25,651 nucleotides of DNA from a virus: positions 1 through 25,651 of IMG/VR virus record IMGVR_UViG_3300024255_000974; one strand, 5' to 3'. Position 1 is the stretch's first letter, and every line of letters begins with the position of its first letter. The notes below the pieces were generated by a model. It was not told where the DNA came from and did no database searches. It saw only the letters and a list, made by a program, of their open reading frames with translations. The position numbers and the translations under genes are program-made. Positions 7,538-22,273 of this stretch are shown in pieces.

Positions 7538-9778
7538 TTAACTTACGCCGCTAGGATCTTCGTCTTCTATATCTAATTCTAATTTGTAGTTCGCATCATC
7601 TATAGCAGGAACTTCTAAACTGTTTTCTAAGTAATGTTTAGCACTACTCATATATGTACCTGCTTTAGTAACTTTTGCTTGCCACCAATTAGGGAAGTCT
7701 GAATCTGGTAAGTCGCCTAGCATTTTAAATAATTCTACACAATACTTGCCTGTTTGGTAAAGTTGCCTTCTAATCATATCACGTTCATTGTCAACGTGAC
7801 CTATTGCAACTTTCTTAACTGTACCCATATCGTGTACTGGATCAATCTCTACATCGTCTTCCATTACAACACTTTCATTTATCTTGCTGTTAAAGTCTAA
7901 AACCTTAGTCTTCTTTGGTTCTGCTTCTGCTGATTGACCTGGAAGTAGTTCCATAAATCTTTTTGCTAAATTAGGTTCTGCTACAACATCACTTAATGCT
8001 TTTACTAATGCTGAACCTTCTTGTCTTTCTGCTGGTGCAAGTTTAGTAAAGTCTCCTGCAACCATTTTCTCTAGAGCATTTAGTGCCATATTAATATTAT
8101 TAATACCTACTTTGTCTCTAATTCTTGATATATCTCCTGCACCAACTTCTGCTTCTGAAGTTAAACCTGCTAGTTCTTTTATTCTATCTAACTCTACTTC
8201 GTTAACAGGTAAATCTGTATCTGTTGGACAATCACATTGACTTGATATTTTGTTACAAGCAGGACATTTATTTTTTTGCATCGCTTTATTTATGGGTGCC
8301 ATATGTCTTAAATATCTATCCATTGGTGCTTCTTCGGCTTCATCGATGTCTCTTACATCTTCTCTTGCACCTTCTAAACCTTTTTGTTGCACCATTGTGA
8401 TGTAATCTTGAATCACTTCGTTTGCATACTTCTCATCCATACCTTCTGGATTTGTAAACATCAATGCACCTAAATCTTCTACACATTGCTCTTCGCTTTC
8501 GCAATTATTAATTACACCTACGCAATCTGTCATAGCAATATCAAAAGCATTGCCACCTTCTTGCATATATTGTTCTAATGTATATTCTTCGTCCTCACCG
8601 TCAAGTTTAAACTTTGTGCCTTTTGGCATACCTTTTGCTTTTAGATCCTGTACTTTTTTAGCAAATTTGTTCTGTTCTGCAACTTCGCCTTCTTCAAGTT
8701 CACCTTCGAACTTTGCAACTACACCTTTACTGTGTACTAAATCTTTTAATTCCCCAAACCCTACTGTTGATTGTAACTTAGCAAGGAACTTTTCTTTTGG
8801 TTGAGGTTTCTGTATAATATGTAATAGACTTCTTAATGCCATTGCTTCTGGAACTGAAACTTTAATGTCATCGCCATCGTCTGTTTTAATATGTTGTACT
8901 GGTTTGTACTTGTCTGCATCAACTACGTCTTTAATTGATTCGCTATCAATAATTTTTCCTAATTGGTCATACACACTTTTCTCTTTAAATCCAGGTCCAA
9001 ACTCTGCATCGTCTGATGGCAAAGAGCCTGTATCTACTGTGTATTCATCTTCATTTAATCCTGCGAGTTGGCGCATTCTTTTTAAATCTATTTGTTCCAT
9101 TTGTTCTTCCTTTGCTAATTTGGTTCTAATTAAATTAAAAACCTCTTCATTGTATTTATCATATAAATCAACAAATGCCTGCTTTGCTGTATCGACATCG
9201 CCGCCTAATATGTTCCTTATTTCACTTGCACTCTTAACACTAAAGCCTGCTACGTTAAATGGTTTAGTATCTAAAGTTATAACGTATGCCCTTCTACTTG
9301 CTTTATCGCCCACTGGTCTTATATCTTTTTCTTCTGCAGGTAGTCTTTGTAATGCTTTTTCTTTGCCTTTTGCCGTCATTGCCAATCCTGTTGTAGGAAA
9401 CTGGAATCTAGCATCAGGCCCGTCCATATCTTTTTGACTGACTGCCAAGTATAATGAATTGGTGTCTTCATCTATATCTAAAGCATTTACATACTCTTCG
9501 ATATTGTATGGACTTGTCTTTACTTCCATAATAGCATCTGCTGGAATGCCTGCAAGTATCATCATTTGTTTCTTTTCTTCAAATGTAAACGGCGAATCCG
9601 TATCATTTGTTTTGCCTGATGTTGCTATAACTACTTTGGAATTAGGATATTGGCTCTTGAGTGATTCATAAATGGACTTGTGTCCTTTATGGAATGGATG
9701 AAACCTACCAGGAAATACTACCACAGGCTCAATAGAGTCTGCTTCGAATAATGCTAATATGTTAAAATTGTAATCCAT
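7538..9778 (-). CDS. Nucleotidyltransferase (HxGH) fused to a long phage structural-type polypeptide
   Basis: A 746-residue fusion. Residues 17-220 form a cytidylyltransferase-like nucleotidyltransferase: FPGRFHPFHKGH (HxGH at 30-33) and the second signature VKSASEIRNIL (181-191), as in NMN adenylyltransferase-type enzymes; the substrate cannot be told. After this come acidic, low-complexity stretches, two copies of a short motif (RMRQLAGLNEDE, 234-245, and RIKELAGLTSEAE, 532-544), a possible zinc site CPAC...CDC (505-517), and a C-terminal helical domain with DFPNWWQAKVTKAGTYMSSA (694-713). The very N-terminus MDYNFNILALFEA could be a prohead-type cleavage site (LFE|A). A late-promoter octamer lies 6 bases before the ATG and there is no Shine-Dalgarno sequence. 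Probably a virion protein carrying an enzyme domain. Confidence 0.8.
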   Translation of the reverse strand: MDYNFNILALFEADSIEPVVVFPGRFHPFHKGHKSIYESLKSQYPNSKVVIATSGKTNDTDSPFTFEEKKQMMILAGIPADAIMEVKTSPYNIEEYVNALDIDEDTNSLYLAVSQKDMDGPDARFQFPTTGLAMTAKGKEKALQRLPAEEKDIRPVGDKASRRAYVITLDTKPFNVAGFSVKSASEIRNILGGDVDTAKQAFVDLYDKYNEEVFNLIRTKLAKEEQMEQIDLKRMRQLAGLNEDEYTVDTGSLPSDDAEFGPGFKEKSVYDQLGKIIDSESIKDVVDADKYKPVQHIKTDDGDDIKVSVPEAMALRSLLHIIQKPQPKEKFLAKLQSTVGFGELKDLVHSKGVVAKFEGELEEGEVAEQNKFAKKVQDLKAKGMPKGTKFKLDGEDEEYTLEQYMQEGGNAFDIAMTDCVGVINNCESEEQCVEDLGALMFTNPEGMDEKYANEVIQDYITMVQQKGLEGAREDVRDIDEAEEAPMDRYLRHMAPINKAMQKNKCPACNKISSQCDCPTDTDLPVNEVELDRIKELAGLTSEAEVGAGDISRIRDKVGINNINMALNALEKMVAGDFTKLAPAERQEGSALVKALSDVVAEPNLAKRFMELLPGQSAEAEPKKTKVLDFNSKINESVVMEDDVEIDPVHDMGTVKKVAIGHVDNERDMIRRQLYQTGKYCVELFKMLGDLPDSDFPNWWQAKVTKAGTYMSSAKHYLENSLEVPAIDDANYKLELDIEDEDPSGVS

Positions 9779-9796: not shown

Positions 9797-10468
9797 TTAG
9801 ATAGAAACTGATTGAGGATCCTTTAAGTGTAATGCATCAGGAGTTACTTGTCCTGTTATAGTTAGGCAGTATCTGGGCCAGTAACCTACGTTACCTGTTG
9901 CGTGATAAACTCCTTCTCTCCAACAATGTATGTCTCCTATCCTATATTGATGTATAGGAGTGTTGCCTATTAACACATAGTGACCCCAGTTCCAATCATT
10001 TAGTTGTACCAAGTATCGTATAACTTCTGTATCATCACTAACTTTAGCAAAGTTACGTCTATAATTATTATAACTATCTCTATGCCAAGGAATGGATCTA
10101 CCTGGTGGTTGTTCTAAAAACATTATTTGTGGATCTTTAAGACCACTCAACTCTGCCATTTTATGAAACTCTTCTGGTAAGTCATCGCGTCTTTGGTTGC
10201 CGCCTGTGTTGTGGCTAGTAAAACCTGCACGAGTTAAGTCATTGTGATAGCCTTCCATTATTTCTGCGGCTTCTTTGTTGTAAGGAGTGCCTTTAATACT
10301 TACTTCATCGTATGCATCGTCAGGTGTGAACTGTGATGCTGTATTGGCAACAACATCTGCTAAATCTTCTTTTACAAATCGTCCTACATATTGTACATCG
10401 ACTTCTCTACTTGCTGGATCAAAGTGCCAATCAAAATTTTCTTTGTTCCATTTCCAATAACTATCCAT
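9797..10468 (-). CDS. 2-oxoglutarate/Fe(II)-dependent oxygenase-like (double-stranded beta-helix) protein
   Basis: A 223-residue protein whose C-terminal half has the iron-binding layout of Asp/Asn beta-hydroxylase or cupin-type oxygenases: PPGRSIPWHRD (H129, D131), IRYLVQLNDWNWGHYVLIG, the turn RIGDIHCWREGVYHATGN (distal H189), and RYCLTITG, whose R199 may bind 2-oxoglutarate. The N-terminus carries FDWHFDPASREVDV, shared with the 6856-7536 protein. It overlaps the GH6 gene by 8 bases and is therefore co-transcribed with it. Substrate unknown; hydroxylation of a protein or glycan would both fit. An inactive cupin is the alternative, but the metal triad looks intact. Confidence 0.75.
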   Translation of the reverse strand: MDSYWKWNKENFDWHFDPASREVDVQYVGRFVKEDLADVVANTASQFTPDDAYDEVSIKGTPYNKEAAEIMEGYHNDLTRAGFTSHNTGGNQRRDDLPEEFHKMAELSGLKDPQIMFLEQPPGRSIPWHRDSYNNYRRNFAKVSDDTEVIRYLVQLNDWNWGHYVLIGNTPIHQYRIGDIHCWREGVYHATGNVGYWPRYCLTITGQVTPDALHLKDPQSVSI

Positions 10469-11312
10469 TATAATTTGAATTCCTCACTAATTCCTCAGCC
10501 ATTTCGCCCCACATTCTTCCTGCTCTCGGGCCGTTGTTTTTTGTTCCATCTGACTCTCCAGGTATCTTTACCCATAAAAGAGCATCACATTTATCTACAT
10601 TTGTATCAGTAGTTGGCAACTCTCCTAAGGCTCTTCCTGGAGGATTGCACCATTCATTCCCATAAGGACCATTACCATTGCGACTAGTGTCTATTACAAA
10701 GTAATCATTGGGACGGTGTTCACATACTTTAAGTGCCCACTCTGTACATTCTTTTGTTGTCCTGTAATTACTTATATTTACACTAAATCCCCTTATTTTG
10801 TCATTAGATACGGCATCTAACAGTTTGCCTGCTTCACTAGGATTAAGCCAATTGCTATGTCCTACGTCTATATAAACTATTGCATTAGACTTTTCTGTGA
10901 GCATATTCAATGCTGTCTTCATCATTTCAAGCCGCCACAGGGCATCTGCTTTGCTCATATGAGTTGTATGCGGTAAAGCATCTGGTTCGAATATAACAAT
11001 AGGTTTTCTTTGTCCTATGCCTTCTGCAAACTGTTCAATAAAGGAATAGTAGTATTCTTCTGTTCTTGCACCGCCTTTGCTGTATTGTCCTACATCACGT
11101 TGCGGTAAGTTGTATATGCAAAATATAGGTTCGTAGTCACCTGCACGTTTATACAGTCTGTGTAAACTTTCTTTTAATTTCTTTACAGGGCGTTTATCTC
11201 GTTGACCATACCATAATGCTAATGGCTGTTTGAATATTATTTTACTTAAAGGGTATTGTTCTTCGTAATCTCTAACACGGTTATAGTCCCATACCCAAAA
11301 CGGATACTGCAT
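10461..11312 (-). CDS. Glycoside hydrolase family 6 (cellulase-type beta-1,4-glucanase)
   Basis: The 283 residues follow the GH6 fold block by block: IYNLPQRDVGQYSKGGA (66-82), IVIFEPDALPH (105-115), VYIDVGHSNWL (146-156), RGFSVNISNY (174-183), YFVIDTSRNGNGP (204-216), EWCNPPGRALGE (220-231) and LLWVKIPGESDG (245-256). Known GH6 enzymes are inverting endoglucanases or cellobiohydrolases; the general acid corresponds here to D111, with supporting D73 and D255, all present. There is no signal peptide, no carbohydrate-binding module and no linker, so it is a bare catalytic domain and must leave the cell by lysis or ride on the virion. An AAGGA ribosome binding site precedes the ATG at 11312. It overlaps the oxygenase gene downstream. 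A GH6 enzyme in a phage is unusual. The family call is firm; the substrate (cellulose or another beta-1,4-glucan) is inferred. Confidence 0.9.
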   Translation of the reverse strand: MQYPFWVWDYNRVRDYEEQYPLSKIIFKQPLALWYGQRDKRPVKKLKESLHRLYKRAGDYEPIFCIYNLPQRDVGQYSKGGARTEEYYYSFIEQFAEGIGQRKPIVIFEPDALPHTTHMSKADALWRLEMMKTALNMLTEKSNAIVYIDVGHSNWLNPSEAGKLLDAVSNDKIRGFSVNISNYRTTKECTEWALKVCEHRPNDYFVIDTSRNGNGPYGNEWCNPPGRALGELPTTDTNVDKCDALLWVKIPGESDGTKNNGPRAGRMWGEMAEELVRNSNYNG

Positions 11313-11313
11313 T

Positions 11314-11874
11314 CTATTTCCTTGCTTGACTAAACTTCTTTAATAGTTTATCTCGTTTCTTTATAGCACGTTGTAGTTTAAAGTCGCTGGCATATTCTAT
11401 AAACAGCCTACCATCTAAGTGGTCGTATTCGTGTTGGAAAATACGTGAGTCCCACTCGTCTAATTCTTCTACTACTTCTTTCTTGTTTGAGTCTTGGTAC
11501 TTAACTTTAATTATTTTGGGTCTAGTCAAATGAATAAACAATGCAGGAAAACTTAAACAGCCTTCTTCCATAGTTATTTGTTCCTCACTGACGTCTAGTA
11601 TCTCTGGATTGTATACTCCAATATGTCCTTTTGTTGAATGACGCATAGCAAAGAATTTAACAGCATCGCCTACTTGCGGAGATGCTAACCCTATACCATA
11701 ATTGTGTACCATAGTGTTAAACATCTTTTCTTCGTGTCCAACTACTTCACCGTCGTTGCTCCAAACCAAGTCACTCTTAAAAGGATCTAAATCTATTTTA
11801 ACTCTTAGTATAGGATCGTTAGTGGGTACTAAATTTAATTTTTGTATATCGTTTGCGTCTACTACATCTACCAT
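11314..11874 (-). CDS. def: Peptide deformylase
   Basis: Removes the formyl group from the N-terminal Met of nascent proteins. All three family motifs are present: GIGLASPQ (60-67), EGCLSFP (104-110; C106 metal ligand) and HEYDH (148-152; two His ligands and the catalytic Glu). The ATG at 11874 is chosen over 11961: it has an AGGA site 9 bases upstream, gives the usual length (186 aa) and leaves only a 7-base overlap with the gene upstream. Unlike the shortest cyanophage deformylases it keeps a C-terminal basic helix (163-186). Phage deformylases are common in marine T4-like viruses. Confidence 0.93.
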   Translation of the reverse strand: MVDVVDANDIQKLNLVPTNDPILRVKIDLDPFKSDLVWSNDGEVVGHEEKMFNTMVHNYGIGLASPQVGDAVKFFAMRHSTKGHIGVYNPEILDVSEEQITMEEGCLSFPALFIHLTRPKIIKVKYQDSNKKEVVEELDEWDSRIFQHEYDHLDGRLFIEYASDFKLQRAIKKRDKLLKKFSQARK

Positions 11875-12245
11875 AAGTATATTCCTGTTGTTGTTACAAA
11901 TCCTATTATAACAAAATATGTAATCAAATGCAAGAGTTGATCCGTTCCGTGCAATACCCAAAACATTTGATCCGAAGAACTATATTTATTTCTTCTCATC
12001 AAGTTACTCTTAGTGTAGTCTATGTGATAGTGTATAATAGTATCAAATAAAAATGCTAGTAAAAGTAAATTAAGTTCAAACCCAAAACATAATAAAACTA
12101 AAAAAGTTCCTACGCCGTGAGCAACTGAATGCGATAATCCTTTTAGGTTTCCATATGTAGCCTTGTTGAGATACATAAATGGAAACTGCAAGTAGTAATC
12201 GATTACAATGTGTTTAAATATAAAGGCTAGCCATAATGTGTTCAT
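11868..12245 (-). CDS. DUF3307-like polytopic membrane protein
   Basis: 125 residues with about three membrane segments (roughly 3-25, 42-68 and 104-124). Conserved-looking polar residues sit at their edges: KHIVIDYYLQFP, a His-rich LSHSVAHGVGTF, DTIIHYHIDYTK and LHGTDQLLHL. This pattern of an Asp/Gln-rich first helix and repeated histidines matches DUF3307 phage and bacterial proteins of unknown function. It overlaps peptide deformylase by 7 bases and shares one base with the upstream glycosyltransferase. Function unknown; the histidines could bind metal in the membrane. Confidence 0.8.
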   Translation of the reverse strand: MNTLWLAFIFKHIVIDYYLQFPFMYLNKATYGNLKGLSHSVAHGVGTFLVLLCFGFELNLLLLAFLFDTIIHYHIDYTKSNLMRRNKYSSSDQMFWVLHGTDQLLHLITYFVIIGFVTTTGIYLW

Positions 12246-13054
12246 TATAATCCAGAGCCGACTCCCTTAGCATTCTTACGTTCTTCTTGCCATTCCTCGT
12301 AAGGATTAACTTCATTAGTTATTACTTTATTAAAGTACTCTTGTGTTTCTGGTTGACCAATCTTACTACAGAACCAACTAATTTTGTGCATACAATGTTC
12401 TCTTGCTTTTGTCATATTAGGATGCTGGAAGTCTTCTGGATCATTTGGATTGCCTTCTTTGTATATTCTATTCCTAAATGTGTCGTCATCATTATTACCT
12501 GTTAGGTCAAATCTATCGTGTAATATATCTATTTCAATAGGTTTAAGTACGTTTAATGCCTTTGCTATTGTGCTAATCCAAGCATCGTTTTGTGCATTTA
12601 AACTAAAGTAACCTATTAATAAGTACCAATCAATTGGTACAATAGGAAACAATGCGTATGGATGTGGATGATTAGTTTGATTCATTTTAAATACTGCAAA
12701 CTTATCTTCTTGTTCTGATAATATTGTATCCCAACCTTTGGTTTGTAAAATACAATCATCGTTCCATAGTACCAAGTAATCTCCTGATGCATATCCACAT
12801 AAAGCATTCACGTATTCGTGTAGTTTACTATATCCCAAAGGATTAAACTTCAATACTTTAGTGTCGTTGTTGTAACCTTCTAATATCTTAGGTAGTTCGT
12901 TTGCTACATAGTCTGCTGTGTCTTGGTCGTCATTGTCTACACCAAGTAATAATTCAATCTCTGAAGGGTTGTCTGCTGTTTCCATAATGCTAAGAATTGA
13001 TTTCTCTAGCATTTCTTTTCTTTCCCTTGTGGGTATTAAAAATGATGTTCTCAT
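12245..13054 (-). CDS. GT-A fold glycosyltransferase (family 2-like)
   Basis: 269 residues starting RTSFLIPTRER, the nucleotide-binding first strand of GT-A enzymes, with LLLGVDNDDQD (36-45) as the second strand and GDYLVLWNDDCIL (91-103) holding the DxD-equivalent WNDD that binds metal and sugar nucleotide. No membrane anchor. Donor and acceptor cannot be told. It lies next to a second glycosyltransferase and the paralogue family protein, so the three may act on the same glycan, either host lipopolysaccharide or a virion decoration. Confidence 0.82.
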   Translation of the reverse strand: MRTSFLIPTRERKEMLEKSILSIMETADNPSEIELLLGVDNDDQDTADYVANELPKILEGYNNDTKVLKFNPLGYSKLHEYVNALCGYASGDYLVLWNDDCILQTKGWDTILSEQEDKFAVFKMNQTNHPHPYALFPIVPIDWYLLIGYFSLNAQNDAWISTIAKALNVLKPIEIDILHDRFDLTGNNDDDTFRNRIYKEGNPNDPEDFQHPNMTKAREHCMHKISWFCSKIGQPETQEYFNKVITNEVNPYEEWQEERKNAKGVGSGL

Positions 13055-13055
13055 A

Positions 13056-14123
13056 TTATTTCTTCTTTGTTACTTGCTCTATTTCAACTGGCTCTGCTGG
13101 TGCTGGTGGTTGACCTGCTACTTGCGGTTTGTCGAACTCAGGCATAAGTCTAATAGGTCTATCGTCCATTCCTTGTCTATATAACTCTCCTACATTAGAT
13201 ACATTATCGCCACCTATAATCTTTCTCACATTACCTCTAAATGTGTAATGTCCACTATGGTTAAGTGCTACTCTAGGATCTAACCAAATCTCTCCACCCA
13301 TATCCTGCCAACGTCTACAGAATGTGTAGTCCTCTGACAAGTAACGTCTGCTTTCTGGATCAATGATACAATCAAATAAAGCATACATATACTGTTCAAA
13401 TTTAGGATCAATGTTTAAGTCATTGTTGTATTTGAACTCAGGGTGTTTATCAAACATCTGTTGTATTGTGTCTCGCTTAATACACATAAATCCTGTGCCA
13501 CCATCTAACAATCTAATTAAGTTGTCTGTGATTTTGATGTTAGGCATTTTGTTGCCTTGTTCATCTTTTTCAAAGTCAAAGTTTACAACGTAATTTGAAC
13601 TGTGTCCTTCAATAGTGTTTGCGTTTTCAGTAGGATCTTTTCTTGCCGCATTTATAATGCTATCCCAATTGATTGCTTTCTTAGGATATGCACCTACTGT
13701 GATTGGCTTATCATATGCCAACATTCTCAATACATCTTCTGCATTAAACTCTATATCTGCATCAATAAAAAACAAATGAGTTGCTGTGGTATTTTCCATA
13801 AAGAAACTAACAAGTGTGTTACGTCCTCTAGTAATTAAACTTTCATTTGCTAGTGTACTGATAGTATATTGAATATTGTATTGTGAACACATTAGAACTA
13901 ATTTCATCATACTTCTAAAATATGGTTCTAATATTTGTCCACCGTAACAAGGTGTTGCAATAAACAAATGCTTATCTTGAAATGCTTCTATAGGAATCTC
14001 AATCTTTCTCTCTAAAAGATTATATAAAGTCTGCTCCTGAGCAGTAAAAGATGCTTTTCTTTCTGAAGCCTTCTTAGATTGTAGTTTGCCAGTGGACTTT
14101 TTCTTTCTAGGTTTATTTGACAT
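13056..14123 (-). CDS. Glycosyltransferase-like protein with DAD motif
   Basis: 355 residues. The first 30 are Lys/Ser-rich. The catalytic-type core has LFIATPCYGG (53-62), TRGRNTLVSFFM and HLFFIDADIEF (116-126) with the DxD motif, followed by LLDGGTGFMCIKRD and the acidic SEDYTFCRRW, as in many phage GT-A proteins. The C-terminal 25 residues are Pro/Glu-rich and end in KKK. An AAGGA site precedes the ATG, and an AATAAATA late-promoter-like octamer lies 15 bases further up. Sugar and acceptor unknown. The family assignment is good. Confidence 0.82.
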   Translation of the reverse strand: MSNKPRKKKSTGKLQSKKASERKASFTAQEQTLYNLLERKIEIPIEAFQDKHLFIATPCYGGQILEPYFRSMMKLVLMCSQYNIQYTISTLANESLITRGRNTLVSFFMENTTATHLFFIDADIEFNAEDVLRMLAYDKPITVGAYPKKAINWDSIINAARKDPTENANTIEGHSSNYVVNFDFEKDEQGNKMPNIKITDNLIRLLDGGTGFMCIKRDTIQQMFDKHPEFKYNNDLNIDPKFEQYMYALFDCIIDPESRRYLSEDYTFCRRWQDMGGEIWLDPRVALNHSGHYTFRGNVRKIIGGDNVSNVGELYRQGMDDRPIRLMPEFDKPQVAGQPPAPAEPVEIEQVTKKK

Positions 14124-19288: not shown

Positions 19289-20914
19289 TTAAGGCTTCAT
19301 TTCCGCCGAATAAGTAAATGCGTGGAAGTTCCTTTCACTAAATGTACCATCACCGTTATCAACTGTGTATACTTCTGAAGCATTAATAATGTTTGCACTA
19401 TTAACTTCAGTTATGAATATACCAATGTTAAAATGTCTTGGATAAGCAACACCGTTAGAGTCTGTACCTATAAGCACAAAGTTATAAAGTGTATCTGCAC
19501 TAACACCTGACATTGAAGTTGAATCTGCTGTGATTCTGTTGTTAGTAGTATCTAATGTAAAGATACTTGGTAAACTTGCATACGAGGCTGATGATAAAGT
19601 AACACCTGCTCCTACGTCTAAGTCAAAACTAATTGTATCTGTTTTTAAATGGTTACCAATTGATCCTGCAGGAGTATTCCATACAGTAGCATAGTAACTG
19701 TTTTCTACATACACAATGTTGTTTGGTGTACCACTATATGTTGATTCATCTCTGAACAACATACCTGTTAGTGATTGTGAAACTAAGTAGTTTTTAATAC
19801 TTTCTGAATCTGGTGTACCGTTCATACTGCTCTTTTCAATTGCTAGAGCCGCCGCACCTGCTACAATAGAGCAAGAACAACTAGTTCCACTTGATAGTCT
19901 AAAGTCAGATGTAGTATTATGCTGAGCAACTGTAACATTAACACCTGGAGCAAAAATATCTAATTGCTCACCGTATGGGTTAAGTCCTGTTCCAGTTGAG
20001 TCTGATCCTGGAGGGAAGTTAGTAAATGTTGTCATAGCATCTGTTTGGTCACTAGCACCTACAGTAACAATAGTATCTAACCCTGCTGGGGAATAATCAT
20101 TAACGTCGTTGCCGTGATTACCAGCCGCCGCCACTATAACTGTATTCTTATTAACTCTTAACCATTCGCACACATAATCAATTACGGGGGATTTGTTTGT
20201 GTACCAAGGTGTACAAATTACTTGGGGCATTGTTCTATATCTGAACATTTCATTGTTTAATGAAACATTGGAATATCTAATAGTGTTATCAGTAGTTGAT
20301 AAGGCGTCCCATTCTGCATTAATATGAATAATTCTGCCTACTCTGTATCCTTCAATCTTATCAAAGCCTTCAACTATGTCTTTAAGATCACCTATACCAG
20401 TAGCATCGTGAATCTTACAGTTATGTAAGTGTGCATTTCTGGCAACACCTACAGTTTCACCTACAATTAAACTAGCCATTGCAGTACCGTGTCCTGATGC
20501 ATCTTGGTAATCGCCACTTAATGATGTGTGAATATTAGTAATTGTTGCATTTGCAAATTCATCGTGGTCAGCATCAATGCCGCTGTCCATTAAATAAATG
20601 TTTACGCCGTCACCTGTATAAGTTGCGTCATATTCTGTTCTTAAAGGTAAGTTTCTAGTTACCAATCTTTGTAAATGCCAGTGACTTGTTGCTTCACTTG
20701 TTACAAAGGAGTTTGCTGAAGTACCTTCTTTAAATTGAAATCCAGTTAATCCATCTATGTTATCAACTTGATCTGCTGGAACATCGACTAGTAATAAAGA
20801 TTTTTCTTCTTCTGACAAGTCTTGATATCTTTTAGAGACCGTTCCGCCAAGTCCCGTAATCGCCGCATTAGCAGTATTACCTGCTTGGTCAATTTTAACT
20901 ATGAATTCTGCCAT
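19289..20914 (-). CDS. Subtilisin-like serine protease (peptidase S8) with Ig/cadherin-like C-terminal domain
   Basis: 541 residues. The Asp-His-Ser triad is intact: D110 in YLMDSGID, H142 in SGHGTAMAS and S345 in SSGTSCSCS, with oxyanion N266 in AAAGNHG. The first 75 residues look like an I9-type propeptide, and there is no signal peptide, so it is made in the cytoplasm of the infected cell. Residues 430-515 are beta-rich with LPSIFTLDTTNNRITADS, like putative Ig/cadherin domains of phage tail proteins. A GGGGAAA ribosome binding site precedes the ATG, and it overlaps the PP-loop gene by 16 bases. Together with the PAAR neighbour this suggests a tail-associated protease or a processing enzyme for the radical SAM substrate. 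Both are inference. Confidence 0.88.
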   Translation of the reverse strand: MAEFIVKIDQAGNTANAAITGLGGTVSKRYQDLSEEEKSLLLVDVPADQVDNIDGLTGFQFKEGTSANSFVTSEATSHWHLQRLVTRNLPLRTEYDATYTGDGVNIYLMDSGIDADHDEFANATITNIHTSLSGDYQDASGHGTAMASLIVGETVGVARNAHLHNCKIHDATGIGDLKDIVEGFDKIEGYRVGRIIHINAEWDALSTTDNTIRYSNVSLNNEMFRYRTMPQVICTPWYTNKSPVIDYVCEWLRVNKNTVIVAAAGNHGNDVNDYSPAGLDTIVTVGASDQTDAMTTFTNFPPGSDSTGTGLNPYGEQLDIFAPGVNVTVAQHNTTSDFRLSSGTSCSCSIVAGAAALAIEKSSMNGTPDSESIKNYLVSQSLTGMLFRDESTYSGTPNNIVYVENSYYATVWNTPAGSIGNHLKTDTISFDLDVGAGVTLSSASYASLPSIFTLDTTNNRITADSTSMSGVSADTLYNFVLIGTDSNGVAYPRHFNIGIFITEVNSANIINASEVYTVDNGDGTFSERNFHAFTYSAEMKP

Positions 20915-21957
20915 TCTTTTTCCCCGAGTTGTTTATATTCGTTTATTATATCTATTTCAAGTGTTGGTATAGATACAATTTTTTCTAGATGTTTACGAAA
21001 TCTATTGTCGAAAACATCGTGTTGTTCATTATATTTATCTACATAGTAACGTTTTACTCCTTCGAACCCGGTATATTTGTTGCTTTTAGGAACAACATCA
21101 AAGCCACCTGCAGAGTAATACTGCTGTCGTTTTATATAATGACTGACAATTCTTAAATAATTACCAGGATTTTTACTGCCAACCATATTTAAAACGGTAT
21201 CGTTTAACTTTTTACCTTCTGTATATTCGCTTACTAATGAATCATTTAATTTCTTAGCATCTACTAGTGTAGTTTGTTGTAAAGCATCATATTCTAAATA
21301 TCTACTGTCTGTCATATTTAAATGTGTTTGCTTAATTGTTTTGTATGTGCAAATTGCTAAAGCAGTATTATAATAATGCAAGTTTCCTAAATCGCAACCT
21401 TTGTCACTAAAGAATAAATCATATACCATAGAGTTATTCTCTGGTATAAGTTGTGGTAAATCAGGTTGTGGACCTGGTGCCATTCTTGGCACAAAGAAGT
21501 TTCCTCCTACTGCTACATCCTCCCCTATAATATCAAACATTTTTAAATGTAAACATAACTGAGGACTAGTACACTTGTAAGCAGTTCCATAACTTATAAA
21601 CTCTCCGTTATCAAAAAAGTTAGCAAAGTTTACGTCTACATATTGATATGGTATGTCTAACTCTTCGCAAGTTTGTACTGCATATTGTATATCATAATCA
21701 TTATAACATACACCATTGTCCATCCATCTGCCTATTATACACTTTACGTTTCTGTGTTTGTGAAACAATCTAAGCATTACATCACTGTCTAATCCTCCAC
21801 TACAACATACTGTGATGTCTTTGTGATTGCTAGTTACTTCTAGTATGTTATCACTCCAACTTAAATCATTAGTTGCTGTATCTTTAAAATTAAACATTAC
21901 TCTATTTGTAATGTTATCTATTAGTATTGTTTTATCTTGGTAATCCCTTTGTTCCAT
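20899..21957 (-). CDS. PP-loop ATP pyrophosphatase-like protein
   Basis: The ATG at 21957 is chosen over 21993, which would run into the PAAR gene. Residues 50-62 read VCCSGGLDSDVML, the SGGxDS pyrophosphate loop of N-type ATP pyrophosphatases (asparagine synthetase, NAD synthase, QueC and MnmA families), which adenylate a substrate before amidation or thiolation. The zinc cysteines of QueC are not apparent, nor a glutaminase domain, so the acceptor is unknown. The downstream part has many aromatic and charged residues. It sits between PAAR and subtilase genes, all within a few bases, so it very likely belongs to the same operon. Confidence 0.8.
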   Translation of the reverse strand: MEQRDYQDKTILIDNITNRVMFNFKDTATNDLSWSDNILEVTSNHKDITVCCSGGLDSDVMLRLFHKHRNVKCIIGRWMDNGVCYNDYDIQYAVQTCEELDIPYQYVDVNFANFFDNGEFISYGTAYKCTSPQLCLHLKMFDIIGEDVAVGGNFFVPRMAPGPQPDLPQLIPENNSMVYDLFFSDKGCDLGNLHYYNTALAICTYKTIKQTHLNMTDSRYLEYDALQQTTLVDAKKLNDSLVSEYTEGKKLNDTVLNMVGSKNPGNYLRIVSHYIKRQQYYSAGGFDVVPKSNKYTGFEGVKRYYVDKYNEQHDVFDNRFRKHLEKIVSIPTLEIDIINEYKQLGEKEWQNS

Positions 21958-21958
21958 A

Positions 21959-22273
21959 TTATGCCAGACCAGCAAACACATTAAAAGCACCACTCATAAT
22001 AGGATGTCCGCAAGTAGTTAAATCTCCCATTCTTGCTACAGGTCTACCATTGAATAGTACAGCCATAGGTGGGGAAAATGCTCCAGTGGCAATTTTGCTT
22101 ACAGCACAGGTAGGTACATCAGGTGCTGGTGGATGAGGTGTTATACTGTCGCCAAGTAGTGCGGCTGGTAAGCCATTAACTAATACTGGCCCAAATATAC
22201 CTACACCAATTGCTCCTGGTCCTATGATAGGTCCAATTGCTGAGTCTATAAAAATTCTTGCTACGGGTCTCAT
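21959..22273 (-). CDS. PAAR-domain tail spike tip protein
   Basis: 104 residues covering a PAAR domain: repeated Gly/Pro-rich turns, the signature GRPVARMGD (76-84) and candidate zinc ligands H47, C56, C88 and H90. In T4 the PAAR protein gp5.4 caps the central spike; in type VI secretion PAAR proteins also carry effectors. No extra domain is attached here. A late promoter octamer ends 5 bases before the ATG, with no Shine-Dalgarno sequence. Confidence 0.9.
   Translation of the reverse strand: MRPVARIFIDSAIGPIIGPGAIGVGIFGPVLVNGLPAALLGDSITPHPPAPDVPTCAVSKIATGAFSPPMAVLFNGRPVARMGDLTTCGHPIMSGAFNVFAGLA

Follow-up and report, generated by a model that had tools for sequence, protein, structure and literature searches.

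What use would a phage have for a cellulase whose family is classically bacterial and fungal? The question is raised by a 25,651-base stretch of viral DNA (IMG/VR record IMGVR_UViG_3300024255_000974; the whole stretch is called the window here), whose minus strand carries a gene for a 283-residue protein of glycoside hydrolase family 6 (GH6). Members of this family are the textbook secreted cellulases; the phage proteins described here form a clade without an export signal, with most disulfide cysteines gone and under strong purifying selection. We give about an even chance to the reading that the gene encodes an active, cytosol-folded endo-beta-1,4-glucanase that would be released at lysis onto a cellulose-type matrix. 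An earlier model-made note, drawn from the letters alone (the sequence-only reading), had proposed a GH6 enzyme at this locus; its observation is confirmed, and its interpretation is partly supported.

The GH6 family and the predicted fold are established by computation. In a Pfam scan, the window's open reading frame, which starts with the ATG at 11310-11312 and stops at 10461-10463 exactly as the sequence-only reading had placed it, matches PF01341 with an E value of 9.3e-53 and 180.4 bits (cut-off 27), in a single alignment covering nearly the full profile (protein residues 24-261 to profile positions 19-300 of 305). A phmmer search of PDB yields 46 distinct sequences with E <= 1e-3, a match strength far beyond chance; the best is 1up0, the Cel6 (CelA1) of M. 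tuberculosis (2.9e-47), a GH6 from a compost metagenome and T. fusca Cel6A (TfCel6A) come next, and all four printed alignments are to GH6 enzymes. The PHROGs families give no match to the protein at E <= 1e-3, and among the 50 matches listed from the BFVD viral structures no row is named GH6 (best template modelling score about 0.4).

The AlphaFold model, built with 27 phage homologues, has a mean predicted local distance difference test score (pLDDT) of 83.5 and a predicted template modelling score of 0.88, and it has the distorted alpha/beta barrel of GH6. In a VIA structure alignment, the model superimposes on 1up0 with Z 28.0 (3.0 Å, 276 residues, 33% identity) and on TfCel6A (1tml) with Z 26.6, bearing out the expected overlay on GH6 structures, and each of the 50 structure matches listed, at Z 22.2-28.0, is either a GH6 enzyme or a scaffold derived from one. 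Bacterial endoglucanases score 26-28 as compared to 22-24 for cellobiohydrolases, with the fungal endoglucanase 1dys as an exception at 22.7. Because the Z scores favour short bacterial endoglucanases and the length of 283 residues equals theirs (domains of about 280-300 residues), the enzyme is likely of the open-cleft rather than the tunnel type, in a model whose two weak loops, at residues 74-78 and 215-220, have low pLDDT. The sequence-only reading had held that a predicted fold lacking the substrate tunnel and the catalytic Asp geometry would refute the assignment. A missing tunnel would not do so, because the closest structures are short bacterial endoglucanases; the GH6 fold itself is present.

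The active site is conserved throughout the phage proteins. A profile search of IMG/VR finds 160 stretches with GH6 relatives, of which the best 80 were kept; these encode 66 distinct proteins, so the synteny counts given below for 80 loci include near-copies, and together with the window protein they make up a conservation set of 67. Y67, D73, D111, E253 and D255, the equivalents of TfCel6A Y73, D79, D117, E263 and D265, are invariant in all 67, so that the three aspartates which the sequence-only reading had called intact (D73, D111 and D255) are so in every member. D111 is taken here to be the catalytic acid, and the D79 and D265 equivalents are likewise presumed to keep their roles. In addition, W34, W155, W221 and K249 are invariant across 27 phage rows. 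The GH6 gene is under strong purifying selection in phage: the ratio of nonsynonymous to synonymous rates (dN/dS) is 0.03-0.10 in 13 of 15 phage pairs (dS being just above 1 in four of the 13), while one remaining pair has an undefined dS and the other, with 2 differences, gives 0.25. We infer that the protein is catalytically active and would carry out inverting hydrolysis of beta-1,4-glucan; an inverting mechanism is general to GH6.

What sets the phage proteins apart is the loss of features linked to secretion. In TfCel6A, the disulfides presumably pair C80 with C125 and C232 with C267. A cysteine at the C80 site is present in 38 of 39 cellular proteins and in none of the 67 phage proteins; one within four columns of C125 is present in 38 of 39 cellular proteins and in a single phage protein; and at C267 the counts are 38 of 39 and, within two columns, 14 of 67. 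The window protein has valine at the C80 site, lysine at the C267 site and no cysteine near C125; its C222 corresponds to C232, and it has a further cysteine at position 242 that distinguishes the phage form from TfCel6A. The same disulfide cysteines are carried by M. tuberculosis Cel6, which shares the fold, the catalytic aspartates and a similar length with the phage proteins, and by its close cellular relatives in the tree; most of the cellular rows also have a leader-like stretch.

The cysteine at 242 is an observation in its own right, being present in 36 of 36 phage rows and in 2 of 39 cellular rows. In the wider set, cysteines at 222 and at 242 each occur in 62 of 67 proteins, with a gap in the C222 column in five and valine at 242 in five. 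C222 and C242 may form a phage-specific pair, or may reflect an alignment shift.

The N-terminus tells a similar story. The window protein shows no signal-peptide-like stretch (its highest 12-residue mean hydropathy is 0.94 in the first 60 residues). Of 39 cellular rows, 31 have a hydrophobic stretch within the 150 residues that precede the match, as compared to none of 35 phage proteins in a first set (first 60 residues) and one of 80 in a second (first 40 residues), the lengths searched being unequal to those of the cellular rows. Measured from the aligned start, 77 of 80 phage proteins are 272-286 residues long and the other three 312-316, with no extra domain, and at 76 of 80 loci the frame stays open for at most 15 codons upstream of that start; the bare catalytic domain, without signal peptide or binding module, was thus correctly described by the sequence-only reading. 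Neither the signal peptide nor the TfCel6A-type disulfides of the secreted bacterial enzymes are found in the window protein. Since the export signal and most disulfide cysteines have both been lost, folding and storage in a reducing cytoplasm are indicated, and the phage GH6 is probably a cytosolic form made inside the infected cell.

The gene is rare in named phages and recurrent in environmental ones. Among 50,697 named phage records there are three GH6 matches, namely two Streptomyces phage Gilgamesh records and a single scaffold from human feces, with identities of about 33%, whereas a single-sequence search of IMG/VR yields 36 loci in addition to the wider profile results. GH6 is indeed uncommon, as the sequence-only reading expected, among named phage records, where two of the three matches are the same phage, but not among environmental contigs; moreover, viral GH6 genes are already published (PMC8725595, PMC9948696).

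A tree of 71 rows was built from 28 phage proteins, 39 cellular proteins, 2 other phage proteins and 2 PDB sequences. The phage rows came from the single-sequence scan (36 loci) rather than the wider profile set, after removal of eight near-identical rows; one partial phage row (L035) and four cellular rows (duplicates L064 and L091; L044 and L076, below 100 bits) were dropped. A branch with 100/100 support separates the 28 phage rows from the rest, and the clade's stem, about 1 change per site long, lies amid endoglucanases from Actinomycetota and Myxococcota; an Actinomycetota protein (L102) adjoins the clade with weak support (88/64), and cellular relatives reach about 44% identity. Gilgamesh gp72 and the fecal scaffold are placed elsewhere, gp72 with other cellular GH6 proteins. 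This topology fits one old capture into the phage lineage and separate captures for Gilgamesh and the fecal scaffold. The cellular rows came in part from two surveyed phyla, in which 13 of 282 and 22 of 296 genomes gave a hit, and the donor group is uncertain because Pseudomonadota lay outside that survey.

The carriers appear to be a jumbo-phage lineage close to PA5oct-type phages, within the T4 superclade broadly. A 47-kb contig aligns with the window in five blocks that are 97.7-99.5% identical, and the largest GH6 carriers are contigs of 339,794 bases (G607) and 216,820 bases. By tblastn with T4 proteins, G607 has homologues of gp17, 18, 20, 21 and 23 at 27-35% identity, and it has 10 tRNA genes; contig G004 (130 kb) matches gp15, 17 and 18 only, contig G022 (98.6 kb) gp17 only, and the window, a 25.6-kb fragment, contains none of the tested T4 proteins. 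The label T4-like given by the sequence-only reading is therefore sound in the broad sense through G607, but finds nothing in the window itself, and the nearest named relatives are PA5oct-type. In particular, the G607 capsid protein is 70% identical to those of PA5oct, Paride and relatives, including other Pseudomonas jumbo phages, 64.5% to that of Sinorhizobium phage Phosso and 62-64% to those of Vibrio and Cronobacter jumbo phages; the carriers' terminases are 56-58% identical to PA5oct-type ones (56% for G607). In contrast to the carriers, the named PA5oct-type records have no GH6 match at E <= 1e-5. The window belongs with the lineage of G607, G004 and G022 because its ribonucleotide reductase genes are 76-91% identical to theirs; as a lineage marker in its own right, ribonucleotide reductase was uninformative. 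The T4 capsid family PF07068 matches 0 of 26 carrier records, but no control matched either, and no conclusion is drawn from it. A tRNA-Thr near GH6 in G607 matches 40 phage records, mostly gamma-proteobacterial and two from Staphylococcus, which is only a hint of the host.

Within this lineage the gene is common, and perhaps near-core. With a neighbouring glycosyltransferase-like gene as bait, 27 contigs were found; 14 of the 15 contigs of at least 29 kb also carry GH6 (by comparison of contig names), and the fifteenth ends 2.1 kb past the bait gene. The bait was the window's own sequence, which favours near relatives.

The favoured reading, a cytosol-folded endoglucanase released at lysis, would have the following course. 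A secreted bacterial endoglucanase, similar to those of Actinomycetota or Myxococcota, would have been captured once, long ago, and would then have lost its signal peptide, any linker or binding module and most of its disulfide cysteines. The protein would fold inside the infected cell, where the cytoplasm is reducing, be brought to its substrate by lysis, and cut the cellulose-type beta-1,4-glucan of the host's extracellular matrix; progeny would be freed from cell debris, an aggregate or a biofilm, and the matrix around the next cells would be opened. The substrate, co-transcription, release at lysis, timing, benefit and a cellulose-making host are elements of this course that we infer. If the enzyme is active, it gives a reason for a cellulase in large environmental phages, namely release from or access to cellulose-bound cells, and it would provide a host-prediction marker as well as compact GH6 enzymes, poor in disulfides, that can be expected to fold in the cytoplasm of laboratory bacteria. 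A further proposal, tentative and on balance doubtful, is that a widespread lineage of jumbo phages retains, as a near-core gene, a cellulase adapted to the cytosol, its substrate being a beta-1,4-glucan encountered either at the infected cell or within it; if true, the GH6 gene would point to hosts that produce cellulose, and giant phages would have evolved to break from within a bacterial cellulose barrier that they meet routinely.

The features of the locus are listed in the table.

Table. Coordinates, strand and basis of the features of the GH6 locus and other genes of the window.
Feature	Position	Strand	Basis or remark
GH6 endo-beta-1,4-glucanase-type catalytic domain, 283 residues	10461..11312	-	no signal peptide, no binding module; Pfam, PDB sequences, model, hydropathy
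Codon of D73 (TfCel6A D79 equivalent)	11094..11096	-	alignment mapping
Codon of D111 (TfCel6A D117 equivalent)	10980..10982	-	alignment mapping
Codon of D255 (TfCel6A D265 equivalent)	10548..10550	-	alignment mapping
Shine-Dalgarno-like AAGGAA preceding the GH6 start	11318..11323	-	direct reading; within the end of the deformylase gene
Peptide deformylase	11314..11874	-	PF01327 E 3.5e-36, phrog_2890; listed frame to 11961 from TTG, first ATG at 11874
2-oxoglutarate/Fe(II) oxygenase-like protein	9797..10468	-	overlaps GH6 by 8 bases; HxD...H and R invariant, 13 rows
Glycosyltransferase-like gene (first)	12245-13054	same as GH6	upstream of GH6; PF00535
Glycosyltransferase-like gene (second)	13056-14123	same as GH6	upstream of GH6; phrog_1574 (unknown function); related phage gene annotated putative glycosyltransferase
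PAAR protein	21959-22273		
Subtilase-family (S8) peptidase	19289-20914	-	PF00082 E 5.2e-24
PP-loop-like protein	20899-21993	-	tRNA_Me_trans HUP domain E 1e-4, 22.5 bits (cut-off 20.6)
Nucleotidyltransferase-type protein	7538-9778	-	CTP_transf_like

The most constant upstream neighbour among those tested is the peptide deformylase gene, found on the same strand at 61 of 80 loci and no more than 60 bases away at 45 of these; upstream sequence exceeds 700 bases at 77 of the 80. In the window, 1 base separates its stop from the GH6 ATG. The same-strand run that includes deformylase and GH6 reads like an operon, and the two genes may be co-transcribed. With deformylase as bait, GH6 lies within about 3 kb at 2 of the best 80 of 477 loci, the other 78 being only 37-44% identical and little informative. 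By Pfam, the immediate neighbours of GH6 in the window are enzymes, and the surroundings include nrdAB.

Several observations weigh against the favoured reading or parts of it. Activity and substrate are predictions, and no cellulose synthesis gene was seen, although no search was aimed at one. The cysteine at the C267 site persists in the 14 phage proteins noted above, and C222 is retained in 62 of 67. It is not obvious how deformylase would relate to the cleavage of a glucan, and G607 has no match to the window deformylase; a glutaredoxin precedes its GH6 instead. Virion-type genes also occur in the region, namely the window PAAR gene and, in relatives, a protein beside nrdA read as tail-fibre-like. 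The late-promoter motif TATAAATA is not enriched in the window (2 found, 3.88 expected), leaving the timing test empty. As for frequency, none of the 12 bait contigs below 29 kb has GH6 within its available stretch; most end near the bait gene, although downstream sequence extends for 6 kb in one and for 4-5 kb in three. In some contigs the distance between the bait gene and GH6 reaches 5 kb or more, so the short contigs do not settle how frequent GH6 is.

Other explanations account for parts of the same evidence. A GH6 enzyme carried on the tail or capsid, cutting a beta-glucan capsule or matrix during entry, is an unlikely one. It draws on Gilgamesh gp72 (444 residues, annotated glycoside hydrolase), which shares the GH6 domain and differs from the window protein by a long extension at its N-terminus (its residue 181 and query residue 26 open the alignment) and by its position two genes after a minor tail protein. 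It draws further on the PAAR gene, 10.6 kb from GH6, owing to which GH6 is not cleanly apart from all virion functions. However, the phage proteins are bare catalytic domains without an anchoring domain, the enzymatic neighbours speak against a virion-borne role, and the five T4-type homologues of G607 lie 59-107 kb from its GH6. Somewhat more improbable is action inside the cell or at its membrane, where the enzyme would trim nascent cellulose at the synthase and either halt matrix production or recover glucose for the phage. The missing signal peptide and few disulfide cysteines would suit cytoplasmic work, as would the metabolic genes around GH6 (deformylase, nrdAB), but cellulose synthase exports the growing chain from the cytoplasm, so that before lysis an enzyme in the cytosol would seldom encounter cellulose, and a Pfam scan of 20 window proteins shows no beta-glucosidase.

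The sequence-only reading had also raised the possibility that GH6 and the oxygenase gene overlapping it are coupled in a glycan function, and a wider form of the idea, that GH6 acts on a phage-made glycan together with the two upstream glycosyltransferase-like genes and the downstream oxygenase, is very improbable. Both glycosyltransferase-like genes lie on the GH6 strand, and the second is 70-74% identical among the window, G004, G022 and G607; yet the gene order is inconstant, with the second gene at 26, the first at 31 and the oxygenase at only 21 of 80 loci (within the available stretches), and the residues conserved in the active site correspond to those of beta-1,4-glucanases. Moreover, the oxygenase resembles protein hydroxylases: all 13 members match Asp_Arg_Hydrox (Asp/Asn beta-hydroxylase) at E <= 1, weakly and below the cut-off (best 0.022, window 0.15), and the structure matches listed for its low-confidence model (pLDDT 66.6) are mostly 2-oxoglutarate hydroxylases, with a best Z of 8.2, a level that may reflect no more than a common arrangement. 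It is probably a protein-hydroxylase-type enzyme rather than one with a glycan role, and the coupling was not borne out. Finally, host contamination or a recent stray capture without a phage role would be in keeping with the family's usual hosts and with the identity to cellular relatives, but is judged refuted, with next to no probability left to it, by the 80 viral loci with shared synteny, the single clade on a long stem, the low dN/dS and the presence of GH6 on a contig with T4-type structural genes (G607).

The published viral GH6 genes were interpreted differently from the lysis-released endoglucanase favoured here. In Mariana Trench sediments, viral GH6 is among the auxiliary metabolic genes and is proposed to help degrade algal cellulose (PMC8725595), and in the Aral Sea basin GH6 candidates for such genes lie on metagenomic contigs (PMC9948696); in the available portions of both papers, they are read as helping hosts degrade algal or plant polysaccharide, and a jumbo-phage GH6 clade, disulfide loss or deformylase synteny is not described. 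The available text on marine jumbo phages in PMC9123017 contains no cellulase, hydrolase, glucan or deformylase, and that of a jumbo phage review (PMC13282480) no cellulase, glycoside hydrolase, depolymerase, glucanase or deformylase, while the apparent GH6 mentions in the accessible part of PMC10227523 are to GH62. Among the matches listed, titles and abstract openings show no jumbo-phage GH6 clade, in a scope that left aside most subscription papers and all bioRxiv preprints. Viral cellulases that have been read as aiding host carbon degradation may sometimes serve the phage directly.

Further observations concern the genes around GH6 in the carriers. At about 160-178 kb in G607, the translations around GH6 read as several short 2-oxoglutarate oxygenase-like proteins, one with a sub-threshold Asp/Asn beta-hydroxylase match (E 0.0026), and two fatty-acid-desaturase-like membrane proteins. 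The carriers' translations also include a putative ferredoxin, an IscU-like scaffold and a CGFS-type monothiol glutaredoxin, the last backed by a Pfam match in G607; the set reads as phage-borne iron-sulfur cluster genes. In the window, the subtilase-family peptidase, which has relatives in G004 and G022, stands beside the PP-loop-like protein. The nucleotidyltransferase-type protein has 746 residues in the window and 834 in the near-identical contig G002, the 88-residue difference being an indel within the gene. At the end of G004 (L045:25-555), the translation of an open reading frame resembles the catalytic domain of class III nucleotidyl cyclases; a signalling cyclase would be unusual in a phage.

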